From a virus, in IMG/VR virus record IMGVR_UViG_3300025669_001092, positions 1 to 21,394 of that record: a DNA stretch of 21,394 nt. One strand, written 5' to 3'. Positions 1 through 21,394 of this stretch are shown here, in pieces; within the stretch, counting starts at the first letter, position 1; every line of letters starts with the position of its first letter. A model generated the notes under the pieces. That model ran no database searches. It was not told the DNA's origin and saw only the letters and a list, made by a program, of their open reading frames with translations. The position numbers and the translations under genes were made by a program.

Positions 1-1070
1 CGTTTCAATTCTGTTGTATTACATATAAAAGGAGTACCAAACCAACACGTACTTGCCTCCTGCAATTCCTTTACTCCTCTAATCCCTGATATATTACGAG
101 TAACTATCGCTTCTATTGTCGTTTTAGCTATTCTCCTATTGAAATCAATCTTATTAAACTTCTCTAACTGTACCGATCCGATTGCTCCCTGTAAATCTAA
201 CGGCTTTACATTGTAACCCATACTAGAAAATACATATTTATGATCCACCACTCCATCGTATTTGTCTAACCATTTGGCAAATCTATGTTTGCATTTTCCT
301 TCCGGCAATAAGCTATCTGTACCAATGCAATAACAATCCCTTCCCCAATTGACTAGACTCCGCATCAGTTTCATTAACGGTTGATTATCCGAACAAACCA
401 TTCCTCCCTCTCCAGTAGAAATATGATGAGCCGGATAAAATGAATTTGAATATGCTATGCTATATTCGTTCAAATATTTTTCACCCCACTTAGAACCTAA
501 ACTATCACAGTTATCAAGTATTAATTTTAAACTATATTTTTCACAGATATCAATAAGTTTGTTCATGTTAGGAGGATTACCCAATACCGGAGCTAAAAAT
601 ATTCCTTTTGTCCGTTCAGTTATCTTCTCCTCTATTTTACTTAAATCAAAATTTAAAGTTTCCCACTCAATATCTACGAACACAGGTTTTAACCTATTCT
701 GATGTAATACTGAAATTGTAGTGGGAAAAGCTGCTGGAGAAACTATAATCTCATCCTCATCCTGCCATTCATAATACTGTTTCAAACCAGCAATCAATAT
801 CAAATTAGCAGAAGATCCTGAATTAGTCATTAATGAATGCTTTGTATGGAACATCTCACTAAACTTCTTTTCAAACGCACTAACATTCTTATCAACCGTA
901 ACCCACTTACCATTTAACAAAACACTGATAGCAGCTACCATTTCCTTGTCATCCCAATAAGGACCAGAATAGTAGATAGGAGTTTCCCCTGGTATAAAAT
1001 TATCAGTATTATATACGTAAGGAACTTTATGATCCTTTACCAAAGTTTGTATGATGTCTTCTACAATCAT
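1..1070 (-). CDS. rfbH: RfbH/E1-like CDP-4-keto-6-deoxyglucose-3-dehydrase, partial (C-terminus beyond window)
   Basis: PLP-dependent fold-type I enzyme of the DegT/DnrJ/EryC1/StrS family; 356 residues are visible and the family is usually about 430-440 long. Seen: GSSAN (85-89) for PLP phosphate binding, LILDNCD with Asp187, and FYPAHH (211-216), where His replaces the Schiff-base Lys of the aminotransferases. That replacement is the hallmark of the E1/ColD 3-dehydrases. Cysteines 188, 246, 248 and 260 give C-X57-C-X1-C-X11-C, almost the E1 [2Fe-2S] pattern (C-X57-C-X1-C-X7-C), so E1 is preferred over cluster-free ColD. DHKYVFSSMGYN and LQGAIGSVQLEK also follow RfbH. In the known pathway E1 works with a flavin/Fe-S reductase (E3) to remove the 3-OH of CDP-4-keto-6-deoxyglucose, leading to 3,6-dideoxyhexoses of O-antigens; no E3 is in view. 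The ATG overlaps the upstream GT10 stop as ATGA, implying coupled translation. Confidence 0.88.
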   Translation of the reverse strand, partial: MIVEDIIQTLVKDHKVPYVYNTDNFIPGETPIYYSGPYWDDKEMVAAISVLLNGKWVTVDKNVSAFEKKFSEMFHTKHSLMTNSGSSANLILIAGLKQYYEWQDEDEIIVSPAAFPTTISVLHQNRLKPVFVDIEWETLNFDLSKIEEKITERTKGIFLAPVLGNPPNMNKLIDICEKYSLKLILDNCDSLGSKWGEKYLNEYSIAYSNSFYPAHHISTGEGGMVCSDNQPLMKLMRSLVNWGRDCYCIGTDSLLPEGKCKHRFAKWLDKYDGVVDHKYVFSSMGYNVKPLDLQGAIGSVQLEKFNKIDFNRRIAKTTIEAIVTRNISGIRGVKELQEASTCWFGTPFICNTTELK

Positions 1071-1870
1071 TTTATTTCTTTTAATAGATTAACTATTGCT
1101 GTTTTTATTTGCTCATTATGATCACACCATTTTTCCGACCTCTTGAAATTATCCTGCATTGCCGGCAACATTCTTTCATATTGCTCTATTGTAACGTTAT
1201 TACAAGCTTCCACCATTTCATCTACGCTATTTACTTGAATTATTCCATCAGCATTAAAAAACTCCCCTATATTATCAGCTCCGTAGTATATAGGTACGGT
1301 CAATGTTTGAAAACAATCAATCAACTTCTCAGTAAAGTAATTGTTCATTGATGTGTTCTCGATTGCTATGTGATATTGGGAATCAAATAACGGAGTTTTA
1401 GAAGCTCCCAAAACAAGCTCATTATTATAATTGGCTCCTTTCCACTTATAATGCCCACTCAAATAAAATTTTCTTACTATTTCAATCCTACCTCTTTTTT
1501 TCCACAACTCATGCCGTACTCTATATCCTTCCATAGTTCTATTCGCTTTCCCTCCAACGACCGTAGATACTGAAAACCTTTTCCAGGGCGAAACATATCC
1601 TTTTGCCCAAGTATCTATGCAATGAAAAAACCTTGCTTTAGTATTAGTTTCAAGTAAGCTCTCCCGATAAGTTAATACGTAATTATAATTTTTTGGGAAT
1701 CTATTAACCAACAACACTAAATCATCCCTACAAGCCTCCTCCAAAATTATAATACGAATACTTCCAGCTGGAATTACTTTCACAGGAAACCGATCAATAT
1801 AAACCTTCACATCCTTGTCGGTATCTATATCTATGTTAAGTAAATGATTATAATAAAATTTAACCTTCAT
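1067..1870 (-). CDS. GT10 family fucosyltransferase-like glycosyltransferase
   Basis: 267 residues. The C-terminal half carries the GT10 donor-binding signature at residues 166-211: an AIENT core, then YFTEKL, then VPIYYG and a following NADGII. In known alpha-1,3/1,4-fucosyltransferases this region binds GDP-fucose. The N-terminal half (1-130) is poorly conserved, as expected for the acceptor-side domain. There is no signal peptide or membrane anchor, so it is likely cytosolic and would modify lipid-linked sugars, nucleotide-activated intermediates or phage proteins. It starts 11 nt inside the end of the GT11-GT2 gene and overlaps the dehydrase by ATGA, so it sits in a tightly coupled sugar operon. 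The family is clear; the acceptor and linkage cannot be read from sequence. Confidence 0.87.
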   Translation of the reverse strand: MKVKFYYNHLLNIDIDTDKDVKVYIDRFPVKVIPAGSIRIIILEEACRDDLVLLVNRFPKNYNYVLTYRESLLETNTKARFFHCIDTWAKGYVSPWKRFSVSTVVGGKANRTMEGYRVRHELWKKRGRIEIVRKFYLSGHYKWKGANYNNELVLGASKTPLFDSQYHIAIENTSMNNYFTEKLIDCFQTLTVPIYYGADNIGEFFNADGIIQVNSVDEMVEACNNVTIEQYERMLPAMQDNFKRSEKWCDHNEQIKTAIVNLLKEIK

Positions 1871-3392
1871 AATCTGGAGTTACTAAATGTACTGCTCTAT
1901 ATTTATTTTTCGTTAATTTCAATAACCTATGATATAAATTATGATTCTTATTTGTTGCTCCTTTAGCCTTATTGGTTATAGGGTGCCATTGATGAAACAC
2001 AAAAGGATCTGCCGTTATTTCAAGTTTCAATCCTAATGTTTTAACTTGGTGCAGAAAATAATTATCTTCATAAGCATTCCCATCTTTAAACCGTTCATCA
2101 AATCCATTCAACTGTATTAGATTTTTAGTTGTTATTGCTGAACAAAAATTATATCCTACTGGTCTATGTACTGGATGATTATGCCATCCACTTTCCTTTC
2201 TTGATACTTTAGGCTTATTATTAATAATCACAGTTTCTGGAACCTCCCCTTCAGACAAACAGTAACAACCAAAAGAAATATACTCCTCATCCGTCATTTG
2301 CTTGGCTCTCTCCAGTATGTTACCTTGATGATAACATTCACTATGCTGTATGATTATACTCTTGGGAGAACCCTTTAAAGCCTCTAAAATACCAGTATTA
2401 AGAGCAACAACAGGATTGGACCACCCTTCATTTTTTATTTTGAGTACTTTAACCTCATAAGGCAGAGCAAAAATAAAGGCTTCATTTATGCTTCCGTTAT
2501 CATCTACAATTATTACATTGAAATCTTTTGTGTCGTATTGTTTAAATGATTCTAGGGTTCGTGTCAACTGCTTTTGCCGATCACGGAAATGAGTCATGAC
2601 AATCGTTACCATTTCTTTTCCTGTACCAATTCCCCACCCTGGAGGAGATACCACTATCTTCTCTGGATTATCATTTAAGTAAGCTGCCCACCGACTGAAT
2701 GAACTATTTGCTGTAATATTATGATCACACAATTTCATTAATTCAAAATCCAAGTAATCCTCCAAATGAACGAATGTAATTTTACGGGAAAAGTATTCCT
2801 CCTTAAAATGCTCCTTACTCCACTTCATCCCATTACCAAATACATATATATCTCCTTCTGTATGGCGTAAAGCTTCCATGTAATAGCTTAACGGTAATAG
2901 GTAAAACCCTTTCCTACCAATATAGTCTTCTCTTCTTACATGGACGGATACTGACGGATTTTCAGTGATTTGTTTTTTCAATCTCAAATACTCATCTGTA
3001 TAATACTTCTTCTGTACACAAAACTCCTTACGAAGTCTTGGTAATATACTTTCATAATACTTAAAATCATTCCAGTAACCTAAAAAGTTATTATTATCCA
3101 TCTGTAATAAATCGGGATTATAACCAGTATCTTTAACAGGCTTTTTATCCAAAAATGAATGTATTTTTACTTCTGTATTAAACATTCCTAAACGATAATA
3201 ACGAGGAGAATCTTCCCACCTAAAAAATACACCATCTGTCCACTCTCCTTTTCCATTCTTAATACCACGAGCTCTACGCTCATACCAACCAGTAGCATAC
3301 CTCACATCAATTCCATTCTCTGCCTGAGCTTGACCAAAGGCATACTGTGATAATTGATTTCCTAACCCTGCATATATTCGTACTACATTCAC
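1860..3392 (-). CDS. GT11 (alpha-1,2-fucosyltransferase-like) fused to GT2 glycosyltransferase
   Basis: 510 residues with two catalytic units. Residues 1 to about 255 are GT11-like: GLGNQ near the N-terminus (9-13), HVRREDY (151-157) matching the HxRRxDY donor-binding motif, and LCDHNITANSSFSRWAAYLN (221-240), the usual C-terminal GT11 motif. Residues 261 to about 500 are a GT2/GT-A domain: VTIVMTHFRDR at the start, VDDNG (296-300) in the nucleotide-sugar/metal-binding position, and an acidic ED pair near 442 in the place of the catalytic base. The start is GTG and overlaps the upstream Fcl stop as GTGA. GT11 enzymes transfer fucose from GDP-fucose; the GT2 donor is unknown. The fusion suggests two successive additions to the same glycan. 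Confidence 0.88.
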   Translation of the reverse strand: MNVVRIYAGLGNQLSQYAFGQAQAENGIDVRYATGWYERRARGIKNGKGEWTDGVFFRWEDSPRYYRLGMFNTEVKIHSFLDKKPVKDTGYNPDLLQMDNNNFLGYWNDFKYYESILPRLRKEFCVQKKYYTDEYLRLKKQITENPSVSVHVRREDYIGRKGFYLLPLSYYMEALRHTEGDIYVFGNGMKWSKEHFKEEYFSRKITFVHLEDYLDFELMKLCDHNITANSSFSRWAAYLNDNPEKIVVSPPGWGIGTGKEMVTIVMTHFRDRQKQLTRTLESFKQYDTKDFNVIIVDDNGSINEAFIFALPYEVKVLKIKNEGWSNPVVALNTGILEALKGSPKSIIIQHSECYHQGNILERAKQMTDEEYISFGCYCLSEGEVPETVIINNKPKVSRKESGWHNHPVHRPVGYNFCSAITTKNLIQLNGFDERFKDGNAYEDNYFLHQVKTLGLKLEITADPFVFHQWHPITNKAKGATNKNHNLYHRLLKLTKNKYRAVHLVTPDYEG

Positions 3393-3970
3393 GCCGCTAA
3401 TATTTTATCTTTCCAGATTGCCGGCAATACATGACAGTTAGATAAATGAAAATTATCACGAATCCCGTATAAATTAGTTGGCATCGCTGATATAAAATTA
3501 CAACCATACTGTTTCCTATAAGCATCACATGTTATAAGACCAGCAATCTTTGCAATAGCATAACCTATATTAGACGACTCCAATGAATCCGTCAACAAAT
3601 ACTCTTCCCGTATTGGTTGTTTGCATAACTTCGGATAGATACAAGCTGATCCCAAAAATATTAACTTTTCAACTCCAGATAATCTAGCAGCTTCTATAAC
3701 GTTTGTTTGAACTAAAAGATTTTCCCTTATAAAGTCTCCAGGGCAAGTCATATTGGCATTAATACCACCAACTCTAGCAGCTGCCAAAAATACATACTCT
3801 GGTCTATCCGTACTGAATATCCACTTGACTACATTTGGATCTGCTAAATCACAATTTTTGTGTGGGTAGGTAATAAGATTATAATACCCTTGGTTTTGTA
3901 AAGCTCTGACAATAGCTGATCCAACCAACCCGGTATGTCCTGCTACATATATTTTACTTGTCTTCTCCAT
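3389..3970 (-). CDS. fcl: Truncated GDP-L-fucose synthase (NAD(P)-dependent epimerase/reductase)
   Basis: 193 residues against about 310-320 for the family. Full-length Fcl/WcaG converts GDP-4-keto-6-deoxymannose to GDP-L-fucose. Seen: the NADP-binding GHTGLVG (11-17), and every catalytic residue known from E. coli Fcl at a +1 offset: Ser108 and Cys110 (GSACIYP), Tyr137 and Lys141 (YAIAK), and His180 (NCHVLP). The protein stops about 13 residues after His180, so the C-terminal GDP-sugar binding domain is absent. The following bases belong to the next gene, with a GTGA overlap, so this is a deletion rather than a simple frameshift. Its start overlaps the upstream gene by 17 nt. It may be a decaying gene, or it may have a different role. 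No Gmd (GDP-mannose dehydratase) gene is in view. Confidence 0.85.
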   Translation of the reverse strand: MEKTSKIYVAGHTGLVGSAIVRALQNQGYYNLITYPHKNCDLADPNVVKWIFSTDRPEYVFLAAARVGGINANMTCPGDFIRENLLVQTNVIEAARLSGVEKLIFLGSACIYPKLCKQPIREEYLLTDSLESSNIGYAIAKIAGLITCDAYRKQYGCNFISAMPTNLYGIRDNFHLSNCHVLPAIWKDKILAA

Positions 3971-4667
3971 TTAGAATCTCTTTAACAGTTGACTTTCTAA
4001 ATATTTTAATCGTACTATCCGGACAGGCATTAATTATTTCCACTCCTCTAAGTAAAGCATCTCTTTGAATAGCGGGAAAACCACGGGAATGCCTTTCAAA
4101 TGGTAATCCCTTTACTTCTCCTGGTTTTCTATTAGCTGTTCCATATAATCCATGCCAATGTTGTTTATGCTCTTTATCCAACTTCATATCAAATCCAAGT
4201 AGGATAATTTTAGAAACTCCCGAATTTACTGCTACACTTATTGCAGCTGATCCACTATTGCCATTCCAACAAACCTTACTATAATCAGGACTAATTCCTT
4301 GGCCATGTTTTCCATTCCGATTTAATACCTTAATATGCTCCGTATCATTTTTCAATAAACTAGCATGACAAGATACTTTCATTCCAATAAATTCAGCTAG
4401 TAGTTCCCTATTTTCAAGATACCAACGTTTATCACCAAAAAATACCATGTCAATCCAATCTCCAATTAAAAACGCTGAATTAACTCCTATTACATGCTTT
4501 CCATGTATTGCTTTCATGTAAGGAGAATAAGCCCTAGGTGGTAACTTACCACTTAGTACCTGTTGAATAATATCATCAGGAACATCAAACTGCCTTGGAA
4601 CAGATGGACCTCCACCGATAATCCAACATTCTCCATCTGTCCACATTCTTGGAACTGTCCATCTCAT
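3954..4667 (-). CDS. GGGPS-motif Rossmann protein, DUF115/sialyltransferase-like (function unproven)
   Basis: 237 residues, no signal peptide. A nucleotide-binding-like loop GGGPS (18-22) follows a hydrophobic strand (CWII). Further conserved-looking blocks are HVIGVNSAF, GDWIDMVFFGD, NSGSAAISVAVNSGV, IILLGFDM, HWHG and an H-x-x-GFPAI block near the C-terminus. A GxGPS loop followed by VN-A/S-F resembles the Rossmann core of DUF115/Maf and GT42 sialyltransferase-like proteins, and very similar unannotated proteins are common in tailed phages. It lies between a capsid-proximal gene and clear sugar genes, 5 nt after the 108-residue ORF and overlapping Fcl by 17 nt. A nucleotide-sugar role is therefore plausible but inferred. 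A GGAG lies just upstream of the start. Confidence 0.6.
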   Translation of the reverse strand: MRWTVPRMWTDGECWIIGGGPSVPRQFDVPDDIIQQVLSGKLPPRAYSPYMKAIHGKHVIGVNSAFLIGDWIDMVFFGDKRWYLENRELLAEFIGMKVSCHASLLKNDTEHIKVLNRNGKHGQGISPDYSKVCWNGNSGSAAISVAVNSGVSKIILLGFDMKLDKEHKQHWHGLYGTANRKPGEVKGLPFERHSRGFPAIQRDALLRGVEIINACPDSTIKIFRKSTVKEILNGEDK

Positions 4668-18599: not shown

Positions 18600-19124
18600 T
18601 TACTCCTGATGTTCTGGTAATAGTTTTAATCCCACAGATGTCATTAACTCTACTTGTTCTCTTGTAAATTCAGTCAGGTCTATATGTTGATGATTAATAT
18701 CTATTTGTGATTTTTGTACATCTGCCCATCTTTGTCTCTGACGATTCTTTAACCAGAATATACAGGCTACCTCACTTGGTGGATAATGTTTTGTTATATT
18801 GGTAGTTGTTATTTCTCCCTGAAAGTTTGAAATATGTACGTCTGGATGACTATACCCTGTTGCTCTTTCAAATAATGATCGCTCTACTTGTTCATCCTTT
18901 GTTAGTTTCCCTTTGTTTAATGCTTCCAGGAATTCTGGTTTTGTACGTTTCCAATATGTAATAGTATGCTCACTCACATCCATTACCTGAGCTATCTGAG
19001 TATCGGTGGCTCCAAACAATGATGCTAGTAAAAATGCCTGCCTAATACGATCTCCATTCCACTTTACAGGCTTCTTGGTCCGCTTTACTACTTTTTTGAC
19101 ATTGGAAAATCGGGTGTGAGTCAT
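18600..19124 (-). CDS. terS: Terminase small subunit
   Basis: 174 residues. HTH at about 26-60 (GDRIRQAFLLASLFGATDTQ, then VSEHTITYWKR), an oligomerisation helix (KLTKDEQVERSLFERATGY, 74-91) and the family block KHYPPSEVACIFWLKNRQRQ (112-131). It recognises packaging sites and directs the large subunit. First gene of the minus-strand late operon; the start has no SD and is preceded by an AT-rich intergenic region. Confidence 0.88.
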   Translation of the reverse strand: MTHTRFSNVKKVVKRTKKPVKWNGDRIRQAFLLASLFGATDTQIAQVMDVSEHTITYWKRTKPEFLEALNKGKLTKDEQVERSLFERATGYSHPDVHISNFQGEITTTNITKHYPPSEVACIFWLKNRQRQRWADVQKSQIDINHQHIDLTEFTREQVELMTSVGLKLLPEHQE

Positions 19125-19342
19125 AAAATCGAGGTTTTATTACTGATATAATAATAATAAAAGGATTTCTAATAAAAAAATTTAATTTTATTTATTTTTT
19201 AACTCTTTGATTGTTAATATATTAAAGGCATTTAAAATTTAGTTTAAAAAATAGCTTTAAAAGCATTAGGTTATTAAAATTATTCTTTTTATCTTTACTG
19301 AGTCAAAAAGTTCTAAATATGGTTTACTTCAAAAAAACAAAT
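19125..19342. promoter_or_regulatory. AT-rich divergent intergenic region
   Basis: Between the late operon (minus) and the nuclease/helicase genes (plus). Very AT-rich with A/T runs and TAATAATAATAA; it must hold the late promoter. I found no convincing Bacteroidota-type TAnnTTTG element or sigma70 pair on either strand, so the promoter type is unresolved. Confidence 0.4.
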
Positions 19343-19413
19343 CCAGCATCAGAGTTCCATTTATGGAAGCGGTTTTTCATATTTATCGTTGACAGCTTTG
19401 GTGCTGGTTTTTT
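19343..19413 (+). ncRNA. Three-way-junction RNA with terminator-like U6 tail before the nuclease gene
   Basis: Read as plus-strand RNA, CCAGCATCAGAG (19343-19354) pairs over 12 continuous positions with CTTTGGTGCTGG (19396-19407), including two G-U wobbles. Inside are hairpin TTCCAT-TT-ATGGAA (19355-19368) and a weaker helix GCGGT/ATCGT (19369-19373 with 19385-19389). Six T residues (19408-19413) follow. The nuclease ATG is at 19419. The G-U pairs hold only in plus-strand RNA, giving a strand assignment. It may be a 5' leader attenuator/riboswitch-like element, or a small RNA ending here. No known RNA family was recognised. Confidence 0.55.
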
Positions 19414-19418
19414 AAATA

Positions 19419-20135
19419 ATGAGAAAGTATAAAAATAATCAAGGGGTATATCAAATAAAATCTGAAAAAACTAATAGGATTTATATTGGGAGTACTATTA
19501 ATTTTAAAAAAAGGGAATATGCTCATTATCAAAATTTAGAAAAAGGAAGACATATAAACTCTCGTTTACAAAGATATTATAATAGATATGGAAAAGAAGA
19601 TTTGGTGTTCTCTATATTAGAAATAACTTCAATAGGAATTAATCAAAAAAAATTGTTTGCAAGAGAACAATATTATATTGATAAATTAAAACCTACATTT
19701 AATCTATGTATAAATGCCGGATCATTACGAGGAGTTACTCGAATAAGAAAAAAACAACAAGCACTATATTATGATAATATAATAGAAATAAAAAGACTTC
19801 CTCATTTAAAAATGATAAGAAGAAGATTCAAGTGGAGTCAAACAATTTTAGCAGAAAAAGCAAAGGTATCCTTTGTAAATATTTCTACATTAGAAACCCA
19901 AAGATCAGCGTCTCCTCATGCAAACACTAGACGCGATATTGAATTAGCATTTAAACAACGTATTGATTGGATTAAAACATTAGGTATGGCAAATGGAGAA
20001 GAAGAAAGTTGGGAAGACTTAGAAAACGATTTACGTACAGTAATAACAAATGCTTCCTGTCTTCCCAACAAACAGAAAAAACAATTTATTGATGTAATTT
20101 ACAGATATGTAGAACATTTAGAAGATTCATACTAA
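19419..20135 (+). CDS. GIY-YIG nuclease with XRE-like helix-turn-helix
   Basis: 238 residues. The GIY-YIG domain is at 9-95: GVY (9-11), RIYIGST (20-26), a following Lys/Arg-rich helix, and Glu83 in REQYYIDKLKPTFN, the usual metal-binding Glu. An N-x-x-x-x-A-G-S linker (95-102) is typical of homing-type GIY-YIG proteins. Residues about 130-185 look like an XRE/Cro HTH: RRFKWSQTILAEKAKVSFVN, then STLET and a basic RRDIELAF block. This suggests a free-standing site-specific nuclease or a nuclease-regulator. The gene is more AT-rich than the helicase after it. It lies 5 nt after the U-tract of the RNA structure, has no SD, and its stop is 10 nt before the helicase ATG. Confidence 0.83.
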   Translation: MRKYKNNQGVYQIKSEKTNRIYIGSTINFKKREYAHYQNLEKGRHINSRLQRYYNRYGKEDLVFSILEITSIGINQKKLFAREQYYIDKLKPTFNLCINAGSLRGVTRIRKKQQALYYDNIIEIKRLPHLKMIRRRFKWSQTILAEKAKVSFVNISTLETQRSASPHANTRRDIELAFKQRIDWIKTLGMANGEEESWEDLENDLRTVITNASCLPNKQKKQFIDVIYRYVEHLEDSY

Positions 20136-20145
20136 AAGCCTCAAA

Positions 20146-21394
20146 ATGAAACCCCTCTTAGCCACACTAACCGCAATCGGGCAATCTCAACAGCCTAAAA
20201 TTAAGGTCTCGTTTCCTTTTTCATACGATACTTTAGAAAAGGTTAGAACTCTACCCAGCCGTCAATATCACCAGGAAGGTAAGTTTTGGTCATGTCCTTT
20301 ATCCATTGATGCTGTAGAAATGTTAATGGAATGGAAATTCACGGTTGATCCTCAACTGTTATCCTTCCTACATAAAAGCAAGGTTCATGTTGACGATATA
20401 GAAAGTATTGCTGTACCTGGATTGAAAGGTAAGTTATACCCATTCCAAGAGTTTGGTGTTGGTTACATAGAAGCTAAACGTGGTAGAGCTTTGATTGCTG
20501 ATGAGATGGGTTTGGGTAAAACCATTCAGGCATTGGCTTGGTTACAATTACATCCTGAGTTAAGACCTGTTGTAATTGTTGTTCCTGCCTCTTTAAAACT
20601 TAATTGGGAAAAGGAAATTATGGATTGGATGACCAAAGCCGGAACAATTAAAATACTATCCGGTACTACTCCTACTAGACTTACTAAAGATATTATTATA
20701 ATCAATTATGATATTATTTTTGCCTGGGTAAATGAAATAAAACGCTTACGCCCACAAGTATTAATCCTGGATGAAGTTCATTACACTAAAAATAACCAAG
20801 CTAAACGAACCAAAGCTGTTAAACGATTAGGTAAATTTATTCCTCATGTTATTGGCTTATCTGGTACTCCTATTGTAAACCGTCCTATTGAGATATACAA
20901 CGCTGTTAATATAATTGACCGTACTATATTCCCTTCACAATGGGATTATACCGAGAAGTATTGTGCTCGTAAATATAATGGATTTGGTTGGGATGTTAGT
21001 GGAGCTAGTAATACAGAAGAATTGAATTACAAACTTACCAATACCATTATGCTCCGTCGTTTAAAGAAAGATGTCCTACCTGATTTACCTGATAAAGTCC
21101 ATAGCTATATTCCTATTGAATTGGATAACGTGGAGGAATATAACTTTGCTGAGAATAACTTCATTTCATTTGTTAAACAATATAAAGGTAAAGAGGCTGC
21201 CATAAGAGCTAGCAACGCTCAGGCACTGGCAGAAATTGAAGGTCTGAAACAGTTAGCCGTTAAAGGTAAACTAAAACAATGTATTAATTGGATCCGGGAC
21301 TTCTTGGAATCAGATGAAAAGCTGGTTGTCTTTGCCACCCATAAATTTGTTATTGAGGCGTTGATGAAAGCATTTCCAAAGATAGCAGTTAAAG
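20146..21394 (+). CDS. SNF2/SMARCAL1-like helicase, partial (C-terminus beyond window)
   Basis: 416 residues visible from ATG 20146, reading open to the window edge. An N-terminal HARP-like part (KIKVSFPFSYDTLEKVRTLP, then FWSCPLSIDAVEML) precedes the SF2 ATPase: Q-motif-like LYPFQEFGV (97-105), Walker A DEMGLGKT (119-126), VVPASLKLNW (145-154), Walker B DEVH (209-212), motif III SGTP (239-242) and RRLKKDV (304-310). VFATHK (395-400) begins the second RecA domain. SMARCAL1-like enzymes anneal or remodel DNA at replication forks; phage versions likely act in replication or recombination. It is cotranscribed with the nuclease. No SD is evident. Confidence 0.9.
   Translation, partial: MKPLLATLTAIGQSQQPKIKVSFPFSYDTLEKVRTLPSRQYHQEGKFWSCPLSIDAVEMLMEWKFTVDPQLLSFLHKSKVHVDDIESIAVPGLKGKLYPFQEFGVGYIEAKRGRALIADEMGLGKTIQALAWLQLHPELRPVVIVVPASLKLNWEKEIMDWMTKAGTIKILSGTTPTRLTKDIIIINYDIIFAWVNEIKRLRPQVLILDEVHYTKNNQAKRTKAVKRLGKFIPHVIGLSGTPIVNRPIEIYNAVNIIDRTIFPSQWDYTEKYCARKYNGFGWDVSGASNTEELNYKLTNTIMLRRLKKDVLPDLPDKVHSYIPIELDNVEEYNFAENNFISFVKQYKGKEAAIRASNAQALAEIEGLKQLAVKGKLKQCINWIRDFLESDEKLVVFATHKFVIEALMKAFPKIAVK

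Follow-up and report, generated by a model that had tools for sequence, protein, structure and literature searches.

A conserved structured RNA at the predicted early promoter of phages that likely infect Bacteroidota

Introduction

In Bacteroides, GibS and the small RNAs derived from 5′ UTRs combine a Bacteroidota-type promoter, a conserved single-stranded 5′ region, hairpins and a Rho-independent terminator (PMC7366714). Transcripts that arise by partial termination are a recognized class in Flavobacterium psychrophilum (PMC9723704). Among phages, the put RNAs of HK022 are about 70 nt long, form two stem-loops and lie downstream of the early promoters (PMC9378689). T4-type homing endonucleases such as mobE, segF and seg43(25) are free-standing, intergenic genes with structured RNA beside their starts; in seg43(25) of Aeromonas phage 25, a stable hairpin sits just upstream of the ribosome-binding site (PMC2988022). 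For phages of Bacteroidota, small RNAs and the control of early transcripts seem little described, and a literature search for small RNAs encoded by these phages returned nothing relevant.

Here, we describe a structured RNA in a 21.4-kb IMG/VR virus record, which was analyzed over its whole length of 21,394 nucleotides and is called the window below. The RNA resembles GibS and its Bacteroides counterparts in architecture, but it is phage-borne, its putative terminator helix encloses the other hairpins, and it contains a candidate pseudoknot. In position and fold it is similar to HK022 put RNA, as a predicted promoter-proximal RNA with two hairpins that opens a phage early operon. However, it ends in a terminator-like helix and U-tract and comes from a phage of a different host phylum. 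Unlike the hairpins and terminators of the T4-type endonucleases, it also exists without an endonuclease and precedes different genes.

Results

In the window, the late genes run leftwards on the minus strand from the terminase small subunit gene (18600-19124), and the plus strand carries genes for a GIY-YIG nuclease and an SNF2 helicase. The closest named relatives of its terminase large subunit (TerL) belong to Cellulophaga phages (about 39% identity) and Croceibacter phages, so the host is likely a member of the Bacteroidota. Relatives of the locus were gathered by TerL and GIY-YIG searches and with DNA patterns. They provide three distinct versions of the element, all within one terminase clade: that of the window, that of L003 (the same in L004 and L096) and that of L007 (the same in L095). 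L007 is a locus of a 55.8-kb contig from a related phage, in which about 33 kb of plus-strand genes extend beyond the same divergent region; this region is therefore probably the early/late switch point. The late region of the window also holds a glycan gene cluster (3-4667, minus strand) with GT10 and GT11 fucosyltransferase-type genes and a GT2 domain (Pfam), as well as a sugar epimerase-like and an aminotransferase-like ORF, both judged by sequence alone. The features of the plus-strand locus are as follows.

19267-19297, plus strand: predicted early promoter (TAG-N20-TATCTTTA), with a -33-like TAG at 19267-19269, a 20-nt spacer and the -7 box at 19290-19297
19302-19413, plus strand: conserved RNA block running from the predicted +1 through the U-tract; the three phages share 92-94% identity here and 73-76% in the flank upstream
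19315-19322, plus strand: 5′-tail strand of the putative pseudoknot (AAAUAUGG); all 8 bp persist across the three sequences, with a single A-U/G-U change
19343-19354, plus strand: 5′ arm of closing helix P1, from sequence, fold and three-sequence comparison
19355-19368, plus strand: hairpin P2; four of five pairs invariant and the fifth lost in L003; its apical part is the most variable stretch (5 of 6 positions vary)
19369-19389, plus strand: hairpin P3, whose loop contains the candidate pseudoknot strand 19377-19384; two G-U to A-U changes in L007 keep the pairing
19396-19407, plus strand: 3′ arm of P1; one G-U/G-C change, pairing kept
19408-19413, plus strand: U-tract of a likely intrinsic terminator; U-rich in all three versions despite unrelated DNA beyond
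19419-20135, plus strand: GIY-YIG nuclease gene, not part of the RNA element (Pfam PF01541, E = 3e-10)
20146-21393, plus strand: SNF2-family helicase gene (Pfam PF00176, E = 2.8e-34), which runs off the window, starts the conserved early operon and follows the RNA in all carriers

The initial annotation had placed a structured element at 19343-19413. The element is present at these coordinates, and it is the 3′ part of a conserved unit of 112 nt that already begins at 19302; in the L007 contig, the corresponding ends would lie at 21114 and about 21224. Identity among the three phages is 73-76% over 19125-19301, jumps at G19302 and stays at its higher level to 19413. Between the same three phages, fourfold-degenerate sites of the adjacent helicase gene differ by 33-59%. 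At the level of sequence, the block is under strong constraint, and its single-stranded 5′ tail is conserved to the same degree as the helices. One length difference falls within this otherwise conserved tail, where the A-run at 19331-19337 has seven A in the window and six in L003 and L007. Recent exchange of the block between the phages appears unlikely because the apical loop of P2 has diverged while the rest stayed the same.

The conserved block begins where an early promoter would place its transcription start. In Flavobacterium, the -7 box TAnnTTTG spans positions -12 to -5 (PMC9723704, PMC6847099). By this spacing, the -7 boxes TATCTTTA in the window, TATTTTTA in L003 and TATCTTTC in L007 put +1 exactly on the equivalent of G19302 in all three versions, from which we infer a promoter and a start at 19302. 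The plus strand of the intergenic region in the window holds no other match of this kind. Among 33 non-redundant relatives, six have the motif T[T/A]G-N20-TAnnTTT[A/C] at 120-157 nt from the terS start, compared with a shuffle mean of 1.1 (1 of 100 shuffle sets reached six); because the motif was defined after inspection of the sequences, this count is support for the promoter rather than proof. Three of the relatives, L067, L009 and L079, have the same promoter motif in the same place without the RNA block. The stricter pattern TTG-N18-21-TAnnTTT was not enriched over shuffles, and a scan with the sigma-70 consensus was uninformative (7 sites against 7.7 expected). The initial annotation had reported no promoter, but a candidate is present under the Bacteroidota consensus rather than that of sigma-70.

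On the plus strand, 19343-19413 folds with a minimum free energy (MFE) of -25.6 kcal/mol (z = -4.8), and 0 of 200 dinucleotide shuffles were as stable. The minus strand of this stretch has no special stability (z about -0.6), so the structure is specific to the plus strand. A folded, strand-specific RNA had been proposed from inspection of the letters, and the analysis bears out both this proposal and the layout that came with it: a 12-bp closing helix (P1) in which 19343-19354 pairs with 19396-19407, as checked against the letters, two enclosed hairpins, U6 at 19408-19413 and the ATG of the nuclease gene at 19419. P1 and the second hairpin, P3 (19369-19373/19385-19389), are firm. The first hairpin, P2 (19355-19359/19364-19368), has a competing alternative pairing in the MFE structure of the window, and its 4-bp core is retained in all three sequences. 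The full 112-nt block folds well in every version (z = -3.0, -3.6 and -4.2). By sequence and fold, all three versions have the stable helix and U-tract of an intrinsic terminator, and P1 with the U-tract is likely to be one. Counting against this assignment, a 12-bp helix that closes a 41-nt inner region is unlike a textbook terminator.

A pseudoknot that the initial annotation had missed may connect the 5′ tail to this core. The tail at 19315-19322 (AAAUAUGR) is complementary over 8 bp to the P3 loop at 19377-19384 (UCAUAUUU), and dinucleotide-shuffled tails equaled this complementarity in 0, 4 and 10 of 1000 cases for the three sequences. With linkers of 3 nt and 0 nt on the two sides, the geometry of an H-type pseudoknot is plausible.

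Across the 112 positions there are ten substituted columns and one indel. Five of the columns are in apical P2, one is in the U-tract, and four are in P1, P3 and the pseudoknot. All four of the last group leave a standard pair intact; if every change is a transition, the chance of this outcome is about 0.10. As a check of the structure, the initial annotation had suggested looking for compensatory changes in the 12-bp helix; the three sequences show one G-C/G-U change in P1 instead. Because no double-sided compensatory change occurs among the three distinct sequences, the covariation is only suggestive, and with this number of sequences pairing did not differ significantly from shuffle controls.

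Searches of Rfam, another of the suggested checks, gave no match at the gathering cut-off over the whole window, nor up to E = 5 for 19120-19430. A covariance model applied to 95 sources (689 kb), including 14 loci with other GIY-YIG genes, and to 16 whole records detected no other clear copies. The pattern of the closing helix matched four viral contigs, among them L096 with its copy of the L003 version, and the exact helix pattern was absent from 84,980 prokaryote genomes. When searched against phages and plasmids, the block returned chance short matches only. One candidate homologue, L105:1501-1624 (from the L022 phage contig), scored 23.1 bits (E = 0.011 for 74 kb), which is not significant given the number of records searched, and we regard it as no more than a lead. 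Lying directly behind a sigma-like gene, that sequence has a different 12-bp closing helix round two hairpins and a U-containing tail, possibly by chance.

Downstream of the U-tract, the three versions differ completely, and the U-tract is kept at three different junctions. L003 has another GIY-YIG gene at the same junction, with 44% identity over 101 aa to that of the window. In L007, the element is followed by a tRNA-like sequence and then the helicase gene, and a nuclease gene is missing from this site. L067 has the upstream region in common and small ORFs in place of the element. A covariance search of related GIY-YIG loci had also been suggested, and the element is absent at the 14 other loci of this kind. 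Its presence without a GIY-YIG gene in L007 and its absence from those loci associate the element with the early-promoter position rather than with the nuclease. The GIY-YIG gene is probably a later arrival in a slot behind the terminator, which holds different GIY-YIG genes or a tRNA-like sequence.

Discussion

We propose, with moderate confidence, that the element forms the terminator end of a structured RNA of 112 nt, the first product of a phage early promoter. RNA polymerase would start at about 19302 and make the 41-nt A-rich 5′ tail first, followed by P2 and P3 inside P1, and the tail could form a pseudoknot with the P3 loop. P1 and the U-tract would then halt most transcripts at about 19413 and release a small RNA, while the remaining transcripts would continue into the slot with the GIY-YIG gene or tRNA-like sequence and on into the early operon headed by the helicase gene. 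The sharp boundaries of the block, its structure, its U-tract and its independence from the nuclease can be read from the aligned sequences; actual termination, its efficiency, the pseudoknot and any activity of the released RNA are inferred. There is good support for an earlier suggestion that the element is the 3′ end of a phage small RNA, as the conserved block runs exactly from the predicted +1 to the U-tract. Overall, this appears to be a real conserved RNA at the head of an early operon, probably non-coding, new to Rfam and of a general kind that is known. As a conserved RNA with sharp bounds that begins at an early operon's predicted +1, it is a concrete candidate that can be tested.

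Selection may instead keep the 112-nt product and not termination, if the RNA acts in trans and its single-stranded 5′ tail pairs with host or phage mRNAs. We regard this as a tentative possibility. Conservation of the tail equals that of the helices, the unit closes with the U-tract, and the architecture resembles that of GibS (PMC7366714). However, the pseudoknot would also explain conservation of the tail, and a target search among the translation starts of the L007 phage found complementarity no better than that of shuffled tails.

A regulated attenuator in cis seems somewhat more doubtful. Here, a ligand, a protein or the 5′ tail would switch a leader terminator that gates the early operon, and the released RNA would have no function. 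The initial annotation had suggested an attenuator for a nuclease-helicase operon; a specific link to the nuclease is not supported, an attenuator may still be present since no other good promoter was found upstream of the operon, and no regulated switch emerged from the analysis. The element does sit between that promoter candidate and the early operon, and the 5′ tail could serve as the switch by pairing with 19377-19393 before the 3′ arm of P1 is made. Folding of growing prefixes is consistent with this order of events: a tail helix (GUCAA/UUGAC plus UAAAUAUGG/UCAUAUUUA) forms first, and P1 takes over at 105 nt. However, the tail helix leaves the arms of P1 free, so no true antiterminator is seen, and the extended pairing between the tail and the inner region is marginally above shuffles (75, 31 and 49 of 1000). 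Furthermore, in the sister phage L067 the promoter and operon are the same but the element is missing, and no known riboswitch in Rfam matches it. In a more elaborate form, which we consider rather unlikely, this would be a leader RNA of flavobacterial phages in which the tail/loop pseudoknot decides whether P1 forms in time, conditionally terminating or releasing the early replication operon and also yielding a small RNA. If true, such a pseudoknot-timed leader would be previously undescribed and would control about 33 kb of genes in L007.

It is unlikely that the block encodes a leader peptide or small protein whose translation influences termination. According to this model, ribosomes would translate an ORF from AUG 19320 across the hairpin, in coupling with the next gene, and would thereby prevent termination. 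In all three phages, such an ORF does pass the hairpin and overlap the next start codon, by ATGA in L003 and L007 and by 17 nt with the GIY-YIG start in the window. However, the reading frames through the block are inconsistent among the three versions. One extra A in the window (seven against six) shifts the frame there beyond codon six, from which point the peptides diverge; between L003 and L007, all changes in the frame of AUG 19320 alter an amino acid. Two changes between L003 and L007 are silent in another frame (MSKSSKYDLL...), but this frame has no start codon and is shifted in the window. The peptides have no match in Pfam above the cut-off, in PHROGs or in phage records, and on this basis we discarded the possibility that a known protein gene has its 5′ end in the block.

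Our preferred reading, a terminator-capped early RNA, also differs from put-like antitermination, in which the nascent RNA would bind RNA polymerase after the early promoter so that later terminators are ignored, as with putL of HK022. The predicted promoter and fold fit a position like that of put RNA, at the head of an early transcript, and a core of two hairpins. However, a third helix encloses these hairpins and is closed off by a conserved U-tract, a sign of termination, and we consider a put-like function very improbable.

A regulatory hairpin of a homing endonuclease, like those upstream of several T4-type endonuclease genes, would fit the abutting start codon and the precedent of seg43(25) (PMC2988022), but this explanation is largely refuted by L007, where the element stands without a nuclease before an unrelated junction, and by its absence at the 14 other GIY-YIG loci.

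The nucleases themselves show signs of movement: a GIY-YIG gene 56% identical over 126 aa to that of L003 lies elsewhere in the L007 genome (L112:3509-4192, contig positions 43509-44192). The tRNA-like sequence of L007 (3041-3118, minus strand) scored only 16.7 bits against the Rfam tRNA model and was not called by ARAGORN. Similar sequences occur on the minus strand in the early regions of L067 (about 1980-2060), L013 (about 656) and L031 (about 1054); in all four, L007 included, the T-arm is well formed (GGTTCGAATCC or GGTTCGATTCC) and the middle is odd. The early operon of L007 also contains a G-rich degenerate repeat of about 270 nt with GGTNAGGT-like units (L111:3530-3795, about 23530-23795 of the contig), which sits in a 340-nt intergenic gap behind a sigma-like gene.
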